In this document: positions 19,593 to 55,161 of the stretch, piece by piece
Numbering within the stretch: position 1 is the stretch's first letter
Layout: each line of letters begins with the position of its first letter
Assembly: GCF_010686655.1 (NCBI RefSeq)
Contig: NZ_JAAGVY010000001.1
Coordinates: 248,001-312,000, forward strand
Source of the DNA: Cryomorpha ignava
GTDB taxonomy: Bacteria > Bacteroidota > Bacteroidia > Flavobacteriales_D > Cryomorphaceae
DNA: 64,000 bases
Direction: 5' to 3'
Notes under the pieces: generated by a model
The model's database searches: none
What the model was told of the DNA's origin: nothing
Seen by the model: only the letters and a program-made list of their open reading frames with translations
Made by a program: the position numbers and the translations under genes

Positions 19593-20804
19593 ATGATATC
19601 TCCATCTACGCCGTTAAATGAAGAAGCCCGGCTGAAAGAACTTTCTTTATTAGAAATTCTAGATACAATTCCTGAGGAAGAATATGACCAAATTACAGAA
19701 TTGGCATCCCAGATCTGCGAAGTACCCGTTTCTTTAGTTTCATTAATCGATACAGACCGGCAGTGGTTTAAATCAGCACTTGGTATAGATGCCAAAGAAA
19801 CACCGCGTGATTATGCTTTTTGTGCCCATGCAATTAATACGCCTAATGAGATCTTTGAAATTCCTGATGCACGAGCTGATCCTCGATTTCGGGATAATCC
19901 GCTGGTTACTAGCGGCCCAAATATTGTTTTTTATACTGGTGTGCCATTGGTTACGTCTCATGGTAATGCCCTGGGAACTCTATGTGTAATTGATACAAAG
20001 CCAAAAAAGCTCACCACTTTTCAAAAAAAGGCACTTACCACCCTTTCTAACCAAGTAATAAAAAGTTTGGAGCTACGTAAGAGAAATCTGGATATCAAAA
20101 TTCAGAATGACGAGCTCAAAGAAAAAAACGCTATCTTGAGAGATCTTGCTCATGTTGTATCTCATGATTTAAAATCTCCACTAAATAATATTATTGGTCT
20201 ATCAAACATTCTTTCAGATCCCGATAAACCGTCGATAGAAATGGTAACAAAGTTCAGCATGCTTATTAAGCAGACGGCCAATGATCTCAAAATTCTTATC
20301 GATGATGTCATGAAATATTCCACATCAGAAGATGTTTTAAAATATAAACAAGAATCCGTTTCTCTCAACAAAATTGTGGATGAGTGCAAATCACACTACA
20401 ATCATTTGCAAGATATTGAGTTTGACATCGATTTAAATTATCACACAGTTACAGGAAATCCGGTTGCCTGGAAGCAGATTATTTTCAATCTGGTTTCAAA
20501 TGCGGTTAAATACAATGATAAGCCATTGACCTCTATCAGCATTTCGTCCACTTTAAGTGATGACAATTTTATTCATTTTACTGTAAAAGATAATGGAATT
20601 GGAATACCGGAGCATTTACATACAGAGGTTTTTAAACCCTTTAGAACGCTAGATTCAAAAACCCGCAACGGTGAAAATTCATCAGGTCTCGGTCTGGCCA
20701 CTGTAAATAAACTCGTAAAAAGCTTAAAAGGCACAATTGAAATTCAAGCTAATAAACCCCACGGAGCTGTTTTTAGTATCATTGTTCCGGTGAGCCTCAA
20801 TTAG
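19593..20804 (+). CDS. Cytosolic GAF-domain histidine kinase
   Basis: 403 residues, no membrane helices. N-terminal GAF domain (~20-165; ends LGTLCVIDTKPKKL, the usual close of this GAF class), then the dimerisation/phospho-acceptor domain with His191 (VSHDLKSPLNNIIGL) and a complete ATPase domain: N box NLVSNAVKYN, G1 DNGIGI, G2 SSGLGLATVNKL. No receiver or response regulator is adjacent, so the output partner is unknown. A colinear but broken copy follows at 21355. Both copies share an upstream element TAATCACTCGACG (19514-19526 and 21287-21299). Confidence 0.9.
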   Translation: MISPSTPLNEEARLKELSLLEILDTIPEEEYDQITELASQICEVPVSLVSLIDTDRQWFKSALGIDAKETPRDYAFCAHAINTPNEIFEIPDARADPRFRDNPLVTSGPNIVFYTGVPLVTSHGNALGTLCVIDTKPKKLTTFQKKALTTLSNQVIKSLELRKRNLDIKIQNDELKEKNAILRDLAHVVSHDLKSPLNNIIGLSNILSDPDKPSIEMVTKFSMLIKQTANDLKILIDDVMKYSTSEDVLKYKQESVSLNKIVDECKSHYNHLQDIEFDIDLNYHTVTGNPVAWKQIIFNLVSNAVKYNDKPLTSISISSTLSDDNFIHFTVKDNGIGIPEHLHTEVFKPFRTLDSKTRNGENSSGLGLATVNKLVKSLKGTIEIQANKPHGAVFSIIVPVSLN

Positions 20805-21354: not shown

Positions 21355-22190
21355 ATGATATGTCCTTCGATCCCTTCGAATGAAAATAGCCGGCTAAGAG
21401 AACTCTTATCGTTGGAAATTCTGAATACAAATCCGGAAGATGAATATGACAAGATTACAGAACTTGCATCGCATATTTGTGGGGTTCCTATATCGCTCAT
21501 TTCACTAATTGGCAAAGACAGACAGTTTTTTAAATCGACTTATGGAATAAATGCAAAAGAGACTCCCAGAGATCTTGCCTTTTGCGCCCATACAATTAAC
21601 TATCCAACTGAAATTTTTGAAGTGCCTAATGCAAGTATAGACTACCGATTTCACGACCATCCGATGGTTACTGGGAAGCCAAATTTCATTTTTTACGCCG
21701 GTATTCCTTTGGTCTCTTTGCAAGGTCATGCTCTGGGCTCCCTTTGCGTGATTGATCACAAACCCAATAAGCTTGATGAATTTCAGAAAAAAGCACTGAA
21801 AACCCTTTCTTTTCAGGTGAGTAAAAGCCTTGAGCTCCGGAAGAACAAATTGGAACTGGAAATCCGGAAGGAGAAACTTAAGGAGAGAAAATTCACATTG
21901 ACCGAACTCGCCCACCTCATATCCCATGATCTGAAATCGCCAATAAATAACATCATCGGATTATCAGAAGTCCTTTACGACTCTGATCCTCCCTCGCCTG
22001 AACTATCAAGAAAACTCAGCAAACTCATTTCTCTGTCTGCCTATAAACTAAAAGATTTAATAGACGCAGTATTAACCTATGCCGCATCAGAAAACTTACC
22101 AGAGGAAATACACATCGGCACTTTTTACCAAAACACTAAAAGACCGCAAAGCAAATTATAGGCCTTATCGTTTCTTCTGAATGTGATTTC
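21355..22190 (+). pseudogene. Frameshifted, truncated copy of the GAF histidine kinase
   Basis: The open frame (268 codons, to 22161) aligns without gaps to the kinase at 19593: His falls at codon 191 in both (ISHDLKSPINNIIGL). It diverges after about codon 245. A +1 shift near 22110 restores similarity (SALFTKTLKDRKANY against SVSLNKIVDECKSHY), then stops follow and no ATPase domain can be found before the next gene. The product would keep GAF and the phospho-acceptor helices but could not bind ATP. Most likely a decaying duplicate; a shortened protein acting as a phospho-acceptor or competitor cannot be excluded. Confidence 0.82.
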
Positions 22191-41694: not shown

Positions 41695-43217
41695 TAGCTC
41701 AGTTTATCAATTCCGGTTTTCATTCGATCCAGACTTTCCTCTTTTCCGAGCAGAGCCATGATTTCAAACAGGCTGGGCCCCATGCCCTCGCCCGTTACTA
41801 GCAAACGCAGGTTTGGCAGCACCGCTCCCATTCCCAGGCTTTCCCGTTCCAAAAAGGCTTTAAAAACCACTTCGATTTCCGAAGAGTCAAAATTTTCGAT
41901 CTTTTCAAAATCTCCCATTAGTGAACGCATACGATCTGGAGTATCTTCTTTCCATTTTTTACTTACCGTTTTCTCGTCATAAGTTTCAGGTTTCTCAAAA
42001 AGGTAGATTCCCCCGGTTACAATTTCGGGTATGAATGATGCGCGCTCCTTCATTAATGTGCACACGCCTGCAAGGAATTCGTCAGATTTTTGATAGCCCA
42101 TTTCTTCAGAAATTGGCTTTATGGCTTCCGCCAATTCGGCATCGGTCTTAGAACGCAAATACTGCTGATTGAACCATTTTGTTTTATCCGGATCAAACTT
42201 CGCTCCTGCTTTTCCAACACGCTCGAGCGTAAAAGCCTGAATAAGCTCATCCATTGAAAATAGCTCTTGCGTAGTTCCGGGATTCCATCCTAAAAAAGCA
42301 AGCATATTTATAAAAGCACCCTTAAAATATCCTTGTTCGCGGTATCCACTCGATATTTCGCCAGAACTTGGGTCTTTCCACTCAAGTGGAAATACAGGAA
42401 AGCCAAGCTTATCGCCATCGCGCTTGCTCAATTTCCCATTTCCATCCGGTTTTAAAAGTAACGGAAGGTGAGCAAATTTGGGAGCTTCCCAACCAAACGC
42501 CTCATAAAGCAAAACGTGAAGCGGAGCCGATGGCAACCATTCTTCTCCACGTATTACATGCGTGATTTTCATTTTATGATCGTCCACGATATTGGCAAGG
42601 TGGTACGTGGGCATTCCATCACTTTTAAAAAGTACTTTGTCATCAAGCGTATCGGTATTTACCAAAACCCATCCACGAATAATGTCATGAACGCGAACCT
42701 CTTCTTTTCGAGGCATTTTAAATCGAATAACGTAGGGCATACCTTCAGCTATTTGGTTTTCAACATCATCGCTGCTCATTGTTAGTGAGTTGCGCATTGT
42801 TTCACGAGTTATTGTATTGTACTGCGGCGATGCAACTTTTGCCAGTTTTAAGCGATCGCGCATCTCTGTAAGCTCTTCCGAAGTATCAAATGCATAGTAC
42901 GCCTTGCCATCTTTGATCAATTGCTCGGCGTATTCTCTGTACGACCCTTTTCGGTCGCTTTGGCGGTACGGTCCGTATTCTCCGCCAAATCCCGGGCCTT
43001 CATCGGGTGTAATTCCACACCACTTTAATGCTTCTATTACATATTCTTCCGCTCCGGGTACAAACCTCGTCTGGTCAGTATCTTCTATCCGTAGCAAAAA
43101 GTCTCCGCCGTGTTTTTTGGCAAATAAATAATTGTACAAGGCTGTGCGAACTCCACCAATATGAAGGGGTCCGGTTGGGCTGGGCGCAAATCTTACACGC
43201 ACTTTAGCATCGGTCAT
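41694..43217 (-). CDS. gltX: Glutamate-tRNA ligase
   Basis: 507 residues. Class I synthetase: HIGH-type signature PSPTGPLHIGG (residues 11-21) and the KMSKS-type loop as KLSKRDGD. C-terminal anticodon-binding helices from ~340. Charges tRNA-Glu and, where GlnRS is absent, also tRNA-Gln for GatCAB; gatA lies 11 kb away. A -7 element TATCTTTG (43238-43245, minus strand) lies 20 bp upstream. Confidence 0.96.
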   Translation of the reverse strand: MTDAKVRVRFAPSPTGPLHIGGVRTALYNYLFAKKHGGDFLLRIEDTDQTRFVPGAEEYVIEALKWCGITPDEGPGFGGEYGPYRQSDRKGSYREYAEQLIKDGKAYYAFDTSEELTEMRDRLKLAKVASPQYNTITRETMRNSLTMSSDDVENQIAEGMPYVIRFKMPRKEEVRVHDIIRGWVLVNTDTLDDKVLFKSDGMPTYHLANIVDDHKMKITHVIRGEEWLPSAPLHVLLYEAFGWEAPKFAHLPLLLKPDGNGKLSKRDGDKLGFPVFPLEWKDPSSGEISSGYREQGYFKGAFINMLAFLGWNPGTTQELFSMDELIQAFTLERVGKAGAKFDPDKTKWFNQQYLRSKTDAELAEAIKPISEEMGYQKSDEFLAGVCTLMKERASFIPEIVTGGIYLFEKPETYDEKTVSKKWKEDTPDRMRSLMGDFEKIENFDSSEIEVVFKAFLERESLGMGAVLPNLRLLVTGEGMGPSLFEIMALLGKEESLDRMKTGIDKLS

Positions 43218-43279
43218 ATTCTCTCAAAATTTGGGTGCAAAGATATATGTTTTGATTTGAAGCTTATCTTCGCAGCAGG

Positions 43280-44116
43280 ATGGAAAATAGCCTTGATTAC
43301 GAACTGATTGATTTTGGCAATGGCAGAAAGCTTGAGCGGTTTGGAAAATGTATTCTAAACCGACCGGAAATACTGGCCAATAAGCCAAAAACCCTGAGCA
43401 ATGAAGCCTGGCAAAAAATGGCTCATGGACAGTATTCTGATTCTGGAAAGGAAACAGGTAAATGGATAAATATTAACGATTTACCCGCCCAATGGTTATG
43501 TGAGTATGCATCAGCAAATAAACAGTGGACACTGGAACTCACCCCTGGAAAGTACAAACATGTGGGGGTATTTCCCGAGCAGGAAAAGCATTGGAAATAT
43601 CTGGAGAAACACGTAAAACCGGGTCATCGGGTGTTAAATCTATTCGGCTATACAGGTGCTTCAAGTTTGGCTTCCGCCAATGCCGGTGGCGATGTTTTTC
43701 ACGTCGATTCATCGAAATCTGTTATTAAATGGGCAGCAAGGAATGCCCAGCTTTCTGATGTTTCAACCATTCACTGGGTGTGCGACGATGCGCTAAAATT
43801 TGCCGAAAGGGAACTAAAACGCGGCTCGAAATACGATTTTATCATCATGGATCCACCCGTCTTTGGCCAAGGAAAAAAAGGGGTACGCTGGAAACTTGAA
43901 AACCTTTTACCTCAATTGGTAAAAACCACTACAGGCCTACTAAATAAAGGGGGAATTCTGATATTAAACACCTATTCTCCCGTTGTTTCGCTCGAAGAAA
44001 TGGAAGAGTTAATGGTTAAAAATAGTTTGAATTGTACCAAAAAGGGATGGCTTAGCGTTAGTATACAAGATGGGAGACGATTAAACCTGAGCAAATATAC
44101 CATAGCAAAAGGGTAA
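43280..44116 (+). CDS. RlmI-like class I SAM methyltransferase
   Basis: 278 residues. SAM-binding motif LNLFGYTGASSLASANAGG and catalytic-type motif IIMDPPVFGQGKKG as in the RlmI/RlmK branch of 23S rRNA cytosine or guanine methyltransferases, but no N-terminal PUA domain, so rRNA is the likely yet unproven substrate. Divergent from gltX with a 62-bp shared promoter gap holding a TTATCTTCG element just before the start. Confidence 0.85.
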   Translation: MENSLDYELIDFGNGRKLERFGKCILNRPEILANKPKTLSNEAWQKMAHGQYSDSGKETGKWININDLPAQWLCEYASANKQWTLELTPGKYKHVGVFPEQEKHWKYLEKHVKPGHRVLNLFGYTGASSLASANAGGDVFHVDSSKSVIKWAARNAQLSDVSTIHWVCDDALKFAERELKRGSKYDFIIMDPPVFGQGKKGVRWKLENLLPQLVKTTTGLLNKGGILILNTYSPVVSLEEMEELMVKNSLNCTKKGWLSVSIQDGRRLNLSKYTIAKG

Positions 44117-44182
44117 AATCTGCTTAACATTCATTAACTTAGCCCATTCGCAGAGACGCTAAACTTGATTGTACTTTAAGGC

Positions 44183-47100
44183 ATGAATAAAACCTACGAC
44201 AAGCTTATTGAAAAGCTTGATGCTTTTACACGAAAATACTACCTGAATCAAATTATTCGGGGAGCTATTTACTTCGTGGCTATTGGGCTTGCAGCGTTTT
44301 TGCTCTCGGCGGTTTTAGAGTACTTCGGTAGGTTTTCGTCCACTGTGCGTACTGCACTTTTCTTCGGTTTGGTATTTACTTTTGCGGCACTTTTTATAAG
44401 TTTCATCTTAATTCCCGTCTTTAAGCTTGCGCGAATGGGGAAACTCATCTCCCACGACGAAGCCTCTCGCATGATTGGAAATCACTTTCCAAACATCAGC
44501 GATAAGCTACTTAACACGCTACAGCTTAAGCGACAAGCCGAATTAAGTACAAGCGATTCTTCGCTACTTATTGCCAGTATAGACCAGCGCATTGAAGAAT
44601 TACAACCTGTCCCTTTTGTTGCAGCGGTTAATTTTGGTGAAAATCGAAAATACCTTAAGTACGTAGTCCCGCCGGTTGTTTTGGCCATTATCCTGCTCGT
44701 CGTTTCTCCCTCTATTTTAAAAGATGGTAGTCAAAGAATTGTATCGTACAATGTAGATTACGTGCCTGAAGCGCCTTTTGATTTTATTATTGTAAATGAT
44801 TCCCTTAAAGTTCCCTTAAACGAAGACTATCATTTAAAAGTAGAAACCAACGGTACCTATGCTCCCGGTGCCATGAGCGTAGATTTGGGCGGTAAGCTTT
44901 TCCGCTTAAAGCGAAATACCGATGGCACCTTTTCTTACACTTTTAAAAATGTGAGAAACCAAGTGCCGTTTAAGCTTCTCGCAGATGGCTTTTACAGCAA
45001 GAATTTTATTCTAGATGTGCTACCTACACCGTCTGTACTGCATTTTACTGTCGATCTTTCGTATCCCGATTACCTAAAGAAACCAAACGAAACGCTGAGC
45101 AATACCGGAAATATGCGTGTACCAGAAGGAACGCGTATCGGATGGAAATTTTCTACCAGAAATACCGAAGAACTTTATCTTGCTTTCGCTGATTCTGCCT
45201 TTAGACTTCAACCTCGCGAAGCCCAGAAATTTAATTATCAACGAAGAGTTACGAGCAACCAGCTATACAGTGTGGCAGCGCTTAACACCATTGTAGGAGG
45301 TAAAGACACGATAGATTATCGGATAGATGTACTAAAAGATGCTTATCCCAGAATTCAGGTTAGAGAAACCAGAGACTCAACCGATCAGGAACGTATTTAC
45401 TTTTCTGGTGGGGTGAGCGACGATTACGGCATTACAAGACTAGATTTTTACTACACCTTACGCAGCATCGGTGGTGAAGAGAAAACCGAAATAGACAAAA
45501 TAACCCTAACCGGACAGGCCGCCCAAGAGTTTTTTCACTTTAAAGACTTCAGCGCTATGGGGTTAAATCCCGGCGACGAAATAGACTATTATTTTGAAGT
45601 ATGGGATAATGACGGGGTAAACGGGTCAAAATCGTCTCGTAGCAACCGTAAAAGCTTTAAAGCTCCAAGCCTTGATGAGCTTGATAAAGAGCGCAAAGAA
45701 TCATCGGAAAGCGTAAAAGAGAAAATTGAGCAAAGCATTAAAGATGCTGCAGAATTGCAAAAAGAACTCGGAGAGATAAATAAAGACCTGCTGCAGAAAA
45801 AAGATATGAGCTGGCAGGATAAAAAGCGGATTGAAGATCTCTTGAAAAAGCAAAAGGAACTTGAAAAGAACGTAAATCAACTAAAAGAGGAACGTAAAAA
45901 TTCGCAGCAGAATCAGGAAAAGTACATGCAGCAGAGCGAGAGCATTATGCAAAAGCAGCAACAGCTCGAAAAAATGTTTAACGAGTTGATGAGCGAAGAG
46001 ATGAAAGAGATGTATAAAAAGCTTGAAGAGCTTATGCAACAACTTGACCAAGAGAAGATTAGAGAGGAGCTGGAGAACATGGAAATGAGTAATGAGGAGC
46101 TGGAAAAAGAATTGGACAGAACCCTTGAGATCTTTAAGCAACTAGAGTTTGAACAGGAGTTTGAAAAAACTCTGGACAAGCTTGAAGAGCTGGCCAAAAA
46201 GCAGGAAGAACTAAGCGAAGAGAGTAAAGACGGCGATAAATCGAAAGAAGAACTGAAGGAAGAGCAGGATAAATTAAATGAAGAATTTGAAAAACTTCAA
46301 GAAGATTTAAAGGCCCTGGAAAAGCAAAATGAGGAGCTTGAGCGGCCTAATGAAATGCCCGACACTGAAAGTATGGAAGAGCAGATTAAAGAAGACATGA
46401 AAGAGTCATCTGAATCGCTTGAAAAGAACAAGAAAAGTAAGGCTTCGGAATCGCAGCAAGATGCCGCAGAGCAAATGCAGGAGATGGCAAAGCAAATGGA
46501 ATCTGCCATGAGCGGATCGCAATCTGAAAACGCACAGGAAGATATGGAGTCACTGCGCGCCTTATTAGAAAATATCATTCAGCTCTCGTTTGACCAGGAA
46601 GGAATAATGGAAAATTTGCGGGTAATAGAACGCGACGATCCAAAATATGTAGAGCTAGGGCAGAAACAGAAAAAGCTTGAAGACGACAGCCAAATGGTTG
46701 AAGATTCTTTATTCGCCTTGAGCAAACGCGTAGTGCAGATAGAAGCAATCGTAAACCGTGAAATTGGTTTGGTAAACCAAAATATTGCCAAAGCAATAGA
46801 AGATATTGGTGAGCGTAAAACAGCAGATGCTACTAGCCGCCAGCAGTATGTAATGACCTCGTACAACAATTTAGCACTTCTTCTAGACGAGGCTTTACAG
46901 CAGATGCAAATGCAAATGTCTAGTCAAAATCCCGGAAAGGGAAATTGCGAAAAACCCGGCGGGATGGGAAATAAACCCTCTGAAGGTAAAATGAGTAAAA
47001 TGCAGGAGGCCATGGGCAAAAAGCTGGAGCAGATGCAGAAAGCACTTGAAAAAGGCCAGAAACCCGGTGGTAAAAAGCCAGGAATGGGTGGACAGGGAAT

Positions 47101-47524
47101 GAGTAAAGAAATTGCTCAAATGGCCGCGGAACAAGCTGCTATAAGACGCGAAATTGAAAAGATGGCGCAAAAACTAAATGAACAAGGAAAAGGAGAGGGG
47201 AAAGGGCTGCAAGATATTGCAGAAAAAATGGAAGAAACTGAACGCGACCTGGTAAATCAGGAAATAACCCGGGAAACATTTAAACGGCAGCAGGACATCC
47301 TCACCAGATTGCTCGAATCTGAAAAAGCCGAGCGCGAAAGGGAGTACGATAATAAACGCGAAAGTAATTCGCCAAAACCCTACGAACCCAGTAACCCCGA
47401 GCGATATTTAGAGTACAATAAGCGAAAAGCACGCGAAATAGAATTACTTAGAACAGTGCCTCCAGATTTAAAGCCCTATTACAAAGAGCGAGTGAATGAT
47501 TATTTTCTTAATTTTGAGGACTAA
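44183..47524 (+). CDS. DUF4175 large coiled-coil membrane protein
   Basis: 1113 residues. Two N-terminal helices (~25-75) and a third near 155-175 anchor it; ~180-500 is an extracytoplasmic beta-rich part; ~500-830 is a long Glu/Lys/Gln coiled coil (EELKEEQDKLNEEFEKLQ); ~915-990 is Gly/Lys/Met-rich low complexity (GGMGNKPSEGKMSKMQEAMG); the end is charged. Matches DUF4175, a Bacteroidota envelope family of unknown function. Followed by the RsbW-like gene after 31 bp; this order with ybeY and mnmG is, from memory, common in the phylum. Confidence 0.85.
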   Translation: MNKTYDKLIEKLDAFTRKYYLNQIIRGAIYFVAIGLAAFLLSAVLEYFGRFSSTVRTALFFGLVFTFAALFISFILIPVFKLARMGKLISHDEASRMIGNHFPNISDKLLNTLQLKRQAELSTSDSSLLIASIDQRIEELQPVPFVAAVNFGENRKYLKYVVPPVVLAIILLVVSPSILKDGSQRIVSYNVDYVPEAPFDFIIVNDSLKVPLNEDYHLKVETNGTYAPGAMSVDLGGKLFRLKRNTDGTFSYTFKNVRNQVPFKLLADGFYSKNFILDVLPTPSVLHFTVDLSYPDYLKKPNETLSNTGNMRVPEGTRIGWKFSTRNTEELYLAFADSAFRLQPREAQKFNYQRRVTSNQLYSVAALNTIVGGKDTIDYRIDVLKDAYPRIQVRETRDSTDQERIYFSGGVSDDYGITRLDFYYTLRSIGGEEKTEIDKITLTGQAAQEFFHFKDFSAMGLNPGDEIDYYFEVWDNDGVNGSKSSRSNRKSFKAPSLDELDKERKESSESVKEKIEQSIKDAAELQKELGEINKDLLQKKDMSWQDKKRIEDLLKKQKELEKNVNQLKEERKNSQQNQEKYMQQSESIMQKQQQLEKMFNELMSEEMKEMYKKLEELMQQLDQEKIREELENMEMSNEELEKELDRTLEIFKQLEFEQEFEKTLDKLEELAKKQEELSEESKDGDKSKEELKEEQDKLNEEFEKLQEDLKALEKQNEELERPNEMPDTESMEEQIKEDMKESSESLEKNKKSKASESQQDAAEQMQEMAKQMESAMSGSQSENAQEDMESLRALLENIIQLSFDQEGIMENLRVIERDDPKYVELGQKQKKLEDDSQMVEDSLFALSKRVVQIEAIVNREIGLVNQNIAKAIEDIGERKTADATSRQQYVMTSYNNLALLLDEALQQMQMQMSSQNPGKGNCEKPGGMGNKPSEGKMSKMQEAMGKKLEQMQKALEKGQKPGGKKPGMGGQGMSKEIAQMAAEQAAIRREIEKMAQKLNEQGKGEGKGLQDIAEKMEETERDLVNQEITRETFKRQQDILTRLLESEKAEREREYDNKRESNSPKPYEPSNPERYLEYNKRKAREIELLRTVPPDLKPYYKERVNDYFLNFED

Positions 47525-48428: not shown

Positions 48429-50318
48429 ATGCTTCAGGAATACGACGTAATCGTAGTAGGTGGCGGCCACGCCGGTAACGAAGCCGCAGCAGCTGCAGCC
48501 AATCTGGGCTCAACAGTCCTTATGGTAACTATGAACATGAATACAATCGGCCAGATGTCGTGTAATCCGGCTATGGGCGGTATTGCTAAGGGTCAGATTA
48601 TCAGAGAGATAGACGCTATTGGTGGATATTCTGGGATTGTAAGTGATCGAAGTACTATCCAGTTCCGAATGCTCAATATGTCAAAAGGCCCTGCAATGTG
48701 GAGCCCCAGAACACAAAATGATCGGATGCAATTTGCAGAAGAATGGCGTTATATGCTGGAGCAAACACCCAATGTTGATTTCTTTCAGGATATGGTAAAA
48801 AATCTGATTGTTGACGAAAAAGGTAGAGTAGGGGGTGTTGTTACAAGCATTGGAATTGAAATAAAAAGTAAAACTGTAGTTGTAACCAGCGGTACTTTTC
48901 TGAATGGACTGATCCATATTGGTGAGAAAAATTTTGGTGGAGGTCGTGCCGGAGAAAAAGCTTCATTTGGAATTACAGAACAGCTCATAGATTTCGGCTT
49001 TGAGCACGGTAGAATGAAAACAGGAACACCGCCAAGATTAGATGGAAGAACGGTAAATTATTCAATAATTGAAGAACAACCAGGTGATGAAGAGCCTGGA
49101 AAATTCTCATTTTCTGATACACTACCCGTTCAAAACCAAGTGCCGTGTCATATTACCTACACAAATCCTACAGTGCACGATATTTTGCGCGAGGGTTTTG
49201 ATAAATCACCTATGTTTAATGGACGAATTAAATCCATCGGCCCTAGGTATTGTCCATCAATTGAGGATAAAATAAATCGTTTTTCAGAGCGAACAAGACA
49301 CCAAATATTCATAGAACCGGAAGGAAGGAGAACCGTTGAAATCTATTTAAATGGATTTAGCTCAAGCCTGCCGGAAGATGTTCAACTAAAAGCAATACGC
49401 CATATTCCGGGTCTTGAAAATGTAAAAATGTTTCGTCCCGGATATGCAATAGAATACGATTATTTTCCACCTACTCAGCTCACCCATTCGTTGGAAACTA
49501 AACTTGTAGATGGACTTTTCTTTGCCGGGCAGATAAATGGGACAACCGGTTATGAAGAAGCGGCTTGTCAGGGAATGATGGCAGGAATAAACGCTAACAG
49601 AAAAGTGCTGGAGAAAGATCCGTTTACGCTTCAGCGCAGCGAAGCTTATATTGGTGTATTAATTGACGATTTAATCACAAAAGGCACCGAAGAGCCATAC
49701 CGAATGTTTACGTCACGCGCAGAGTATCGCATACTTCTGCGTCAGGATAATGCAGATCTTCGTCTTACTCCAAAAGCGCACGCCTTGGGTCTGGCTAGTA
49801 CTGAAAGACTGAAACGAGTTGAAAAAAAGCGTGATATCATTCAGTCAATTGATAAACAATTTTCAAGAGTGGGAGTCACTCCTCAAGAAATGAATCCTGT
49901 ACTTGAAAGCCACAATTCGAGTCCAATTACACAACAGGTTAAAGTTAGATCAATCATCATTCGCCCAAATATTGGCATGAAAGAATTGGTTCAGGCCAGT
50001 ACTGAATTAACCAGTTTTATACAGCGAAAAGAAATAGAATTTGGCAAAGATCTCACCAAAGAAGCCATGGAAGCTTGCGAGATCAGAATGAAATATGAAG
50101 GGTATATCGATAAGGAGCAAGACATGGCTGACCGTATATCCCGACTTGAAAACATTAAGCTCCATTCCGATTTTAATTACAGAAACGTAAAATCGCTCAG
50201 TGCAGAAGCTACAGAGAAACTCTCGAAGATTAAACCTCAAACCATCGGTCAGGCATCACGCATAAGCGGAGTATCTCCATCAGATATTTCTGTGCTTATG
50301 ATATTTGTCGGCCGTTAA
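48429..50318 (+). CDS. mnmG: tRNA U34 carboxymethylaminomethyl synthase, FAD subunit
   Basis: 629 residues. With MnmE, makes cmnm5U at the wobble base of several tRNAs. FAD motif [19 protein letters not shown] (residues 7-25), the GidA signatures [11 protein letters not shown] and [13 protein letters not shown], and the helical C-terminal domain are all present. In many bacteria mnmG (gidA) lies near the replication origin; here two parS sites follow at once. Confidence 0.97.
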
Positions 50319-50320
50319 AT

Positions 50321-50336
50321 TGTTCCACGTGGAACC
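50321..50336. promoter_or_regulatory. parS site 1 (ParB/Spo0J binding palindrome)
   Basis: TGTTCCACGTGGAACC, 14 of 16 bases in a perfect palindrome; identical to the parS form known from Pseudomonas and one base pair per half-site from B. subtilis parS. Lies between the mnmG stop and the methyltransferase start. Confidence 0.88.
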
Positions 50337-50376
50337 ATCTCAAAAAAATATAACTTTACCCGAAAAATCATCTTCA

Positions 50377-51255
50377 ATGACTGTGGTTTTGATTTGTCCA
50401 ATTTGTGAATCCAAATCTTTTCAACCGGCACTGTCCTTAAAAGATTACAGTATTTCAAAAGAAGAATTCAAAATTGTAAGATGTACAACCTGTAGCTTTT
50501 TATTAACTAACCCGAGACCAACCGACGAAGATCTTTCAAAATATTACGAATCGGAAGACTACATTTCTCATAGTGACACCAAAAAAGGGTTTATAAATAA
50601 ACTTTACCATCAAATACAGAAAATTAATCTAAGGCTTAAATATAAAGCTTACGCCAAATATGTTCCACGTGGAACCTGGATGGATTACGGCGCGGGAACA
50701 GGTGCATATCTCGATTTTCTAAAGTCAAAAAACATATCGTGCGAAGGGTTTGAACCTGACGAAAAAGCACGAAAAATAGGATCACAGAAGGGAATTAAGA
50801 TACAAGATGCTATAGAATATAAATCGTCTTCTAAAGAATATGCTTCTATAACAATGTGGCATGTTCTGGAACATGTTACGAATTTAAATGAAATTATTCT
50901 GAAGCATAAATCCAATTTAATAGAAGGTGGAATTCTCACTATTGCTGTTCCTAATCACAATTCATTTGATGCACAATATTATAAAAACTACTGGGCTGCA
51001 TATGACGTACCTCGTCATTTATGGCACTTTACTGAGAAAAACGTGCGCGCCTTGCTGAAGAAAAATGGTTTTGAACATATTAAAACTAAACCGATGATTT
51101 TTGATTCATATTACGTTTCCATGCTAAGCGAGAAATATAAGGGAAGCAATTTAATAAGAGGAATATTTTCAGGAGCGATTTCAAACCTAAAAGCACGAAC
51201 CACAAAGCACTCTTTTTCAAGTCAAATTTACATTTTTCGCAAAAAACGCTCTTAA
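50377..51255 (+). CDS. Zinc-ribbon class I SAM methyltransferase
   Basis: 292 residues from the ATG at 50377 (MTVVLICPICESK); a TTG at 50305 would add 24 residues and read through parS site 1. N-terminal zinc ribbon (CPIC ... CTTC), then a Rossmann methyltransferase with MDYGAGTGAYLDFL (motif I) and MWHVLEHVTNL. Looks like the SAM methyltransferases often placed among sugar- or lipid-modifying genes; substrate unknown. parS site 2 lies inside the frame and encodes the Val-Pro-Arg-Gly-Thr just before motif I. Confidence 0.82.
   Translation: MTVVLICPICESKSFQPALSLKDYSISKEEFKIVRCTTCSFLLTNPRPTDEDLSKYYESEDYISHSDTKKGFINKLYHQIQKINLRLKYKAYAKYVPRGTWMDYGAGTGAYLDFLKSKNISCEGFEPDEKARKIGSQKGIKIQDAIEYKSSSKEYASITMWHVLEHVTNLNEIILKHKSNLIEGGILTIAVPNHNSFDAQYYKNYWAAYDVPRHLWHFTEKNVRALLKKNGFEHIKTKPMIFDSYYVSMLSEKYKGSNLIRGIFSGAISNLKARTTKHSFSSQIYIFRKKRS
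50661..50676. promoter_or_regulatory. parS site 2 (ParB/Spo0J binding palindrome)
   Basis: Same 16 bases as site 1, exactly 340 bp further on, inside the methyltransferase coding region. Confidence 0.88.
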
Positions 51256-54755: not shown

Positions 54756-54784
54756 CAAATATAAGCATTACATTATGTTCACAA
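54756..54784 (-). promoter_or_regulatory. Bacteroidota-type promoter of rpiB
   Basis: Read on the minus strand: TTG (54784-54782), 18-bp spacer, TATATTTG (54763-54756), ending 15 bp before the start codon. Confidence 0.75.
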
Positions 54785-55161
54785 TTTATTAACAATCAAC
54801 ATAATTACTAAATAGACATCATTGATTTTAAGCCGATTACAAATTTAGTTGTTAGACCCTATCATACACTTTTTGTTAACTAAGCGTTAACAACGAGCTA
54901 TAACTTTATTTGGATATATGACTCTATACATCTGTATGGAAATATAAATCGGATAAGCCTAGTTAACAACCTTAAAAATTATCAATACAAAATGATATAA
55001 CTATCAACACTATATTTACTCCTCAAATCAGATTGTTATCCATACCAACAAAAAACAGGTGAATTGTTGAAATCTCACAAGCCATCAGAAGAACAAGGCA
55101 TTAAGCAATATAAATTGTTTAATAGTTGTTATTAACTTTGGACAAGTAAGAAAAGTACCAT
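54785..55161. other. AT-rich intergenic region with TTGTTAAC-type repeats; candidate origin
   Basis: No gene. Strongly AT-rich. Contains the exact inverted repeat TTGTTAAC TAAGC GTTAACAA (54883-54903), a further GTTAACAA near 54962, looser copies (ATTAACAA, TTGTTATTAAC, TTGTTGAA, TTGTTTAA), and three DnaA-box-like 9-mers: TTATCAATA (54979), CTATCAACA (55001), TTATCCATA (55036; one mismatch to TTATCCACA). A -7 element TAACTTTG (55133-55140) precedes the MORN gene. Origin function is a hypothesis; a multi-site operator is the alternative. Confidence 0.45.

Follow-up and report, generated by a model that had tools for sequence, protein, structure and literature searches.

A pair of parS-type palindromes beside mnmG in Cryomorpha ignava: origin proximity and constraint on coding sequence

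Chromosomal parS sites, their proximity to the replication origin and their occurrence within genes are already known kinds of thing. The loading of SMC-ScpAB by ParB-parS complexes is likewise common, without being a defining feature of parS. In the passages on parS in two reports (PMC7333895; PMC10197239) through which we cite Livny et al. (2007), the chromosomal sites of ParABS systems are 14-16-bp palindromes, present in few copies close to the origin and accompanied by a cognate parA-parB pair, and the sites which are the focus of this study have the same palindrome. For gut bacteria analyzed with Hi-C, including two Bacteroidetes, the passages concerned report that parS clusters coincide with the origin, which is not always true of dnaA, and these passages mention neither a linkage to mnmG nor a coding constraint (PMC10197239). 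In Flavobacteriaceae, oriC has been placed beside mnmG by Ori-Finder and GC skew in taxonomic papers on two flavobacteria (PMC11278836; PMC12843772), in one of which dnaA does not match the skew (PMC11278836). parS sites are not mentioned in these two papers; here, the sites are shown and their linkage to mnmG is surveyed across the order and the phylum. Finally, Noc belongs to a homologous protein family and also recognizes a 16-bp palindromic site (NBS), but the specificity residues and the site differ (PMC7383237).

In contrast to known chromosomal parS sites, the pair described here is anchored to mnmG, apart from both parAB and dnaA, and one of its members lies inside a methyltransferase gene, where codons are frozen by the DNA site. 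Unlike in known chromosomal ParABS systems, a canonical SMC was not found in this genome. As far as we checked, the literature searched, outside of which Livny et al. (2007) lies, contains neither a statement that parS pairs are anchored to mnmG throughout the phylum nor a codon-level demonstration of parS overriding a protein sequence, and part of this may be known. We conclude that the palindromes are very probably the chromosomal parS sites of this bacterium's ParABS system, with mnmG located at the origin and the VPRGT codons of the methyltransferase fixed by the site.

The palindromes and their placement beside mnmG

The window, i.e., the whole 64-kb stretch of DNA that was analyzed (G000:C1:248001-312000), is part of a 5.0-Mb draft genome of 149 contigs and 99.85% completeness. 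It contains two identical copies of TGTTCCACGTGGAACC, whose starts are 340 bp apart (Table 1). The original prediction that this 16-mer occurs nowhere else in the 64 kb holds even at a tolerance of three mismatches to TGTTCCACGTGGAACA, at which no third copy was detected in the window; at the same tolerance, shuffled versions of the window gave a mean of 0.18 matches and 3/100 shuffles reached two. The sites had also been called perfect, which is correct for the 14-bp core GTTCCACGTGGAAC, a perfect palindrome in both copies, but not for the 16-mers, which match the parS consensus TGTTYCACGTGRAACA at 15 of 16 positions and carry C as the last base where the consensus has A.

Table 1. Features of the window relevant to the palindrome pair (window coordinates).
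Feature	Position	Strand	Remark
parS site 1, TGTTCCACGTGGAACC	50321..50336	.	starts 3 bp past the mnmG stop codon
parS site 2, TGTTCCACGTGGAACC	50661..50676	.	within the methyltransferase gene; T/GTT CCA CGT GGA ACC = VPRGT
mnmG (gidA)	48429..50318	+	neighbor of parS sites phylum-wide
Class I SAM methyltransferase (Methyltransf_23)	50377..51255	+	site 2 overlaps codons 95-100, before motif I (DYGAGTG)
Cumulative GC-skew minimum	43001..45000	.	C1 291-293 kb; approximate origin by total skew
AT-rich intergenic stretch	54759..55161	.	weak oriC candidate; between rpiB (-) and the next gene (+)

Across the whole draft assembly (5,006,455 bp), the pair represents the sole exact copies of GTTCCACGTGGAAC, for which about 0.01 occurrences per genome are expected by chance, and this contradicts an even scatter of sites over the genome. 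Looser searches with the 14-mer returned one match with one mismatch and nine with two mismatches, while a reversed-pattern control yielded 9 matches at up to two mismatches. Since the number of mismatched copies is at the level of this control, only the exact pair stands out, and the mismatched copies were rejected as additional parS sites. The single copy with one mismatch, GTTCCACTTGGAAC, lies in uvrA (G000:C43:17153-17166; L003:1501-1514), where it encodes VPLGT, and is probably a chance match. Elsewhere in the window, positions 19593-20804 and 21355-22161 encode tandem, paralogue-like proteins resembling sensor kinases, the second of which is shortened and seemingly devoid of the ATPase domain.

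The association with mnmG extends far beyond this strain. Within the order, GTTYCACGTGRAAC is present in 57/60 genomes, with exactly two copies in 39 of them and 112 copies in total; among the matches listed (75 of the 112), every site lies within 2 kb of mnmG. A stricter 16-mer was found in 86/118 genomes across the phylum, again with 72/75 sites among the matches listed within 2 kb of mnmG. At 80 named loci, including those of Chryseobacterium, Winogradskyella, Aquimarina, Flavobacterium, Fluviicola, Fulvivirga and others, parS lies at most 300 bp from mnmG in 72, with one site on each side of the gene in 57, and the reversed-pattern control gave 0 matches in the same 1.4 Mb. At the remaining eight loci, several of which belong to Saprospiraceae or to unclassified MAGs, a search allowing one mismatch detected no parS in the 300 bp around mnmG.

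In all eight members of the window's family, mnmG is followed by one or more sites at a distance of approximately 2-40 bp from its end. In five of them (G000, G001, G003, G004 and G006), site 2 lies inside the methyltransferase gene; in the three members of genus g3, both sites are located in the 5' part of the methyltransferase gene or in the intergenic stretch. The distance of exactly 340 bp, to which the original prediction had drawn attention, is true of the window but not meaningful in itself, and a functional spacing was rejected: the two sites are 306, 320 and 324 bp apart in relatives (306-340 bp among the carriers of the intragenic site) and 25-93 bp apart in genus g3. This spacing varies because it is set only by the codon position of the site.

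Proximity to the replication origin

From the pair and its gene neighborhood, the window had been predicted to lie near the origin, and this is supported by the GC-skew minimum of the contig, by a switch in gene orientation and by two relatives assembled as single contigs. In this strain, for which skew was computed on one 317-kb contig of the draft assembly (C1), the cumulative curve falls steadily and turns 5-7 kb from parS site 1 (Table 1). Gene orientation switches at this turn, the share of coding bases on the plus strand being 36% to its left and 86% to its right. When fourfold sites alone are considered, the minimum falls at approximately 55-57 kb of the window, on the opposite side of the parS sites, which confines the origin to roughly 43-57 kb of the window without pinpointing it. 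The stretch 44183-47524 encodes a 1113-aa protein whose long Glu/Lys/Gln-rich stretch biases local base skew, and it may shift the apparent minimum. The predicted vicinity of the origin is thus upheld, while oriC is located only to within ~10-15 kb and a cluster of DnaA boxes was not found in the window: matches resembling TTATCCACA were at chance level (15 vs. 15.9 expected), and the location of oriC by DnaA boxes was rejected. The lowest-GC windows of 200 bp (~27% GC) fall in the AT-rich intergenic stretch listed in Table 1.

The skew of relatives was taken from sampled stretches and, for G025, refined at fine scale. On the single 4.10-Mb contig of G025, the fine-scale minimum lies at 3,646 kb, ~5 kb upstream of mnmG (3,639-3,641 kb), and dnaA (1,983 kb) and parB (1,971 kb) are both found ~1.7 Mb from mnmG. 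In G009, also a single contig, sampled cumulative skew reaches its lowest value at the final sample ahead of the contig end; mnmG lies at 15.5 kb. Few copies clustered at the origin, the hallmark of parS, are thus seen here as two copies 340 bp apart near the skew minimum of the contig and in relatives, an assessment that for this draft assembly covers the skew of contig C1.

The gene dnaA, which lies on contig C9 in this genome and far from mnmG in G025, was rejected as an origin marker. In G025 (G025:C1:1970574-1984693) and G045 (G045:C2:1238479-1253640), dnaA and parB are ~13-15 kb apart from each other and ~1.7 Mb and 2 Mb, respectively, from mnmG and parS, as if an old dnaA-parAB neighborhood had moved together away from the origin in these two genomes. 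Elsewhere in the phylum, in family f26, dnaA is still found ~7 kb from mnmG in two single-contig genomes (G109 and G120); in a third member (G163), the two genes are at opposite contig ends and would be neighbors only on a circular chromosome.

The palindromes could also be read as operators of an ordinary transcription factor acting on mnmG or the methyltransferase gene, unrelated to partition, and the fact that they adjoin gene starts and ends, together with the palindromic form typical of operators, would suit such a role. We regard this as very improbable, as the sites show no fixed promoter position or phase, being found upstream, downstream or inside mnmG or within the gene that follows it, and they track the skew minimum even where the neighboring genes differ. 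Furthermore, the sequence matches the parS consensus used in the passages concerned of PMC10197239, and the ParB protein of the genome has residues of the parS-binding type (see below).

A DNA site within coding sequence

The second site lies, as originally predicted, within a methyltransferase gene (assigned to Methyltransf_23, Pfam E = 3e-21), in which it encodes Y-VPRGT-W directly before SAM motif I. This position in a recognizable enzyme domain raises the question of whether VPRGT is kept for methyltransferase function, with the palindrome as a by-product of codon choice, an explanation to which we give slightly less credence still than to an operator. In the five carriers, the methyltransferases are 45-60% identical and the site occupies the same codon position, also in G003 and G004, where it contains one mismatch. 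Pairwise comparison of these carriers shows that third bases at fourfold positions inside the 14-mer are identical in 32/32 pairs; elsewhere in the gene, the figure is 142/494 (29%), near saturation, with 0/29 columns invariant. The only changes inside the 14-mer alter amino acids (CGT to CAT in G003, GTT to GCT in G004). Third bases are thus frozen while amino acids change, which is the reverse of protein-level selection. Given the mismatches in G003 and G004, site 2 may be partly dispensable.

Orthologues lacking the site do not have VPRGT in the corresponding columns, but KHRLT, SPGNE, ARGSR, IKGSK and others. In addition, the same palindrome is found within mnmG in three genomes of family f9 (G025, G037 and G045; L131, L132 and L138), where it is read in another frame and writes FHVE into MnmG at two codon positions, against the residues of the MnmG consensus. 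In a genome of family f2 (G008), parS lies elsewhere in the same methyltransferase and reads LVPRGT. Taken at the level of aligned sequences, the VPRGT peptide of the methyltransferase appears to be dictated by the DNA site, and the suggestion that the protein sequence is held by the DNA site is well supported by the fourfold-site test and the site-less orthologues. The methyltransferase and MnmG trees are compatible either with a single origin of the intragenic site followed by loss in g3, or with its later gain.

Partition proteins and the significance of the pair

Absence of parB from the genome, which would be hard to reconcile with functional parS sites, is contradicted by a single parA-parB operon, located on contig C56 and not on the contig of the window. 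ParB was identified by TIGR00180 (E = 2.5e-51) and consists of the domains ParB_N, HTH_ParB and ParB_C, and the adjoining ParA has an AAA_31 domain with the Walker motif KGGVGKTT. Four specificity positions (173, 179, 184 and 201) were taken from PMC7383237 and read off alignments with Noc and Spo0J. According to that study, R173 and G201 are absolutely conserved in ParB, while positions 179 and 184 vary among ParB homologues, so that RXXG is the pattern of parS-binding ParB and QKKR (Q173/K179/K184/R201) that of Noc (PMC7383237). The protein encoded here aligns with R at 173, Y at 179, N at 184 and G at 201, and the Noc residues were not seen in this alignment. Having R173 and G201, it is, judged by its aligned residues, a parS-type ParB and not Noc. 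A role of the palindromes in Noc binding (NBS) or in plasmid-type partition is barely conceivable and the least credible of the alternatives. It would suit the paralogy of ParB and Noc and the fact that, by sequence, the genome's ParB has its top PDB match in Noc, but the two discriminating residues are R and G instead of Q and R, the base pattern is that of parS, the search of the genome yielded a single member of the ParB/Noc family, and the contig bears core genes.

Together with ParAB, a canonical SMC might be looked for; in this 99.85% complete genome, none was found above cut-off (SMC_prok_B). The only weak SMC hit among frames of more than 1,000 aa, a 1,218-aa frame on contig C32, was rejected, as it represents a CheB-CheR-PAS histidine kinase. 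This negative result agrees with the two Bacteroidetes described as lacking a known condensin in the passages concerned of PMC10197239, and without a canonical SMC above cut-off it cannot be taken for granted that ParB loads SMC here as it usually does.

Understood as chromosomal parS sites, the two palindromes would be the points at which ParB, supplied by the distant parA-parB operon, nucleates as a CTP-dependent clamp and from which it would spread along the flanking DNA, and ParA would move newly replicated origin regions apart; for binding, spreading and segregation at these sites, we infer this from the known family, while the computations themselves show the pair and its uniqueness, the parAB operon with its parS-type residues, the nearby skew minimum, the linkage to mnmG and selection on DNA at the codon level. 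The tie to mnmG would follow from the position of this gene at the replication origin in much of the phylum, with dnaA and parAB having presumably moved away from the origin in the window's relatives. Within the family of the window, selection for the DNA site would fix the codons, and hence VPRGT.

On a wider scale, it is likely that parS and mnmG form an old and stable landmark of the origin in much of Bacteroidota while dnaA and parAB moved, and that parS moves in and out of neighboring coding sequence, where it locally overwrites the protein (VPRGT in a methyltransferase, FHVE in MnmG), so that selection on a centromere determines residues of housekeeping proteins. mnmG with its parS pair provides a sequence-only origin marker for draft Bacteroidota genomes, in which dnaA misleads. 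The intragenic site amounts to a clean experiment of nature on how a DNA-binding site can dictate the sequence of a protein, for which the sister genes that lack the site serve as controls. In a ParABS system without a recognized SMC condensin, what ParB recruits in Bacteroidota becomes testable at defined sites.
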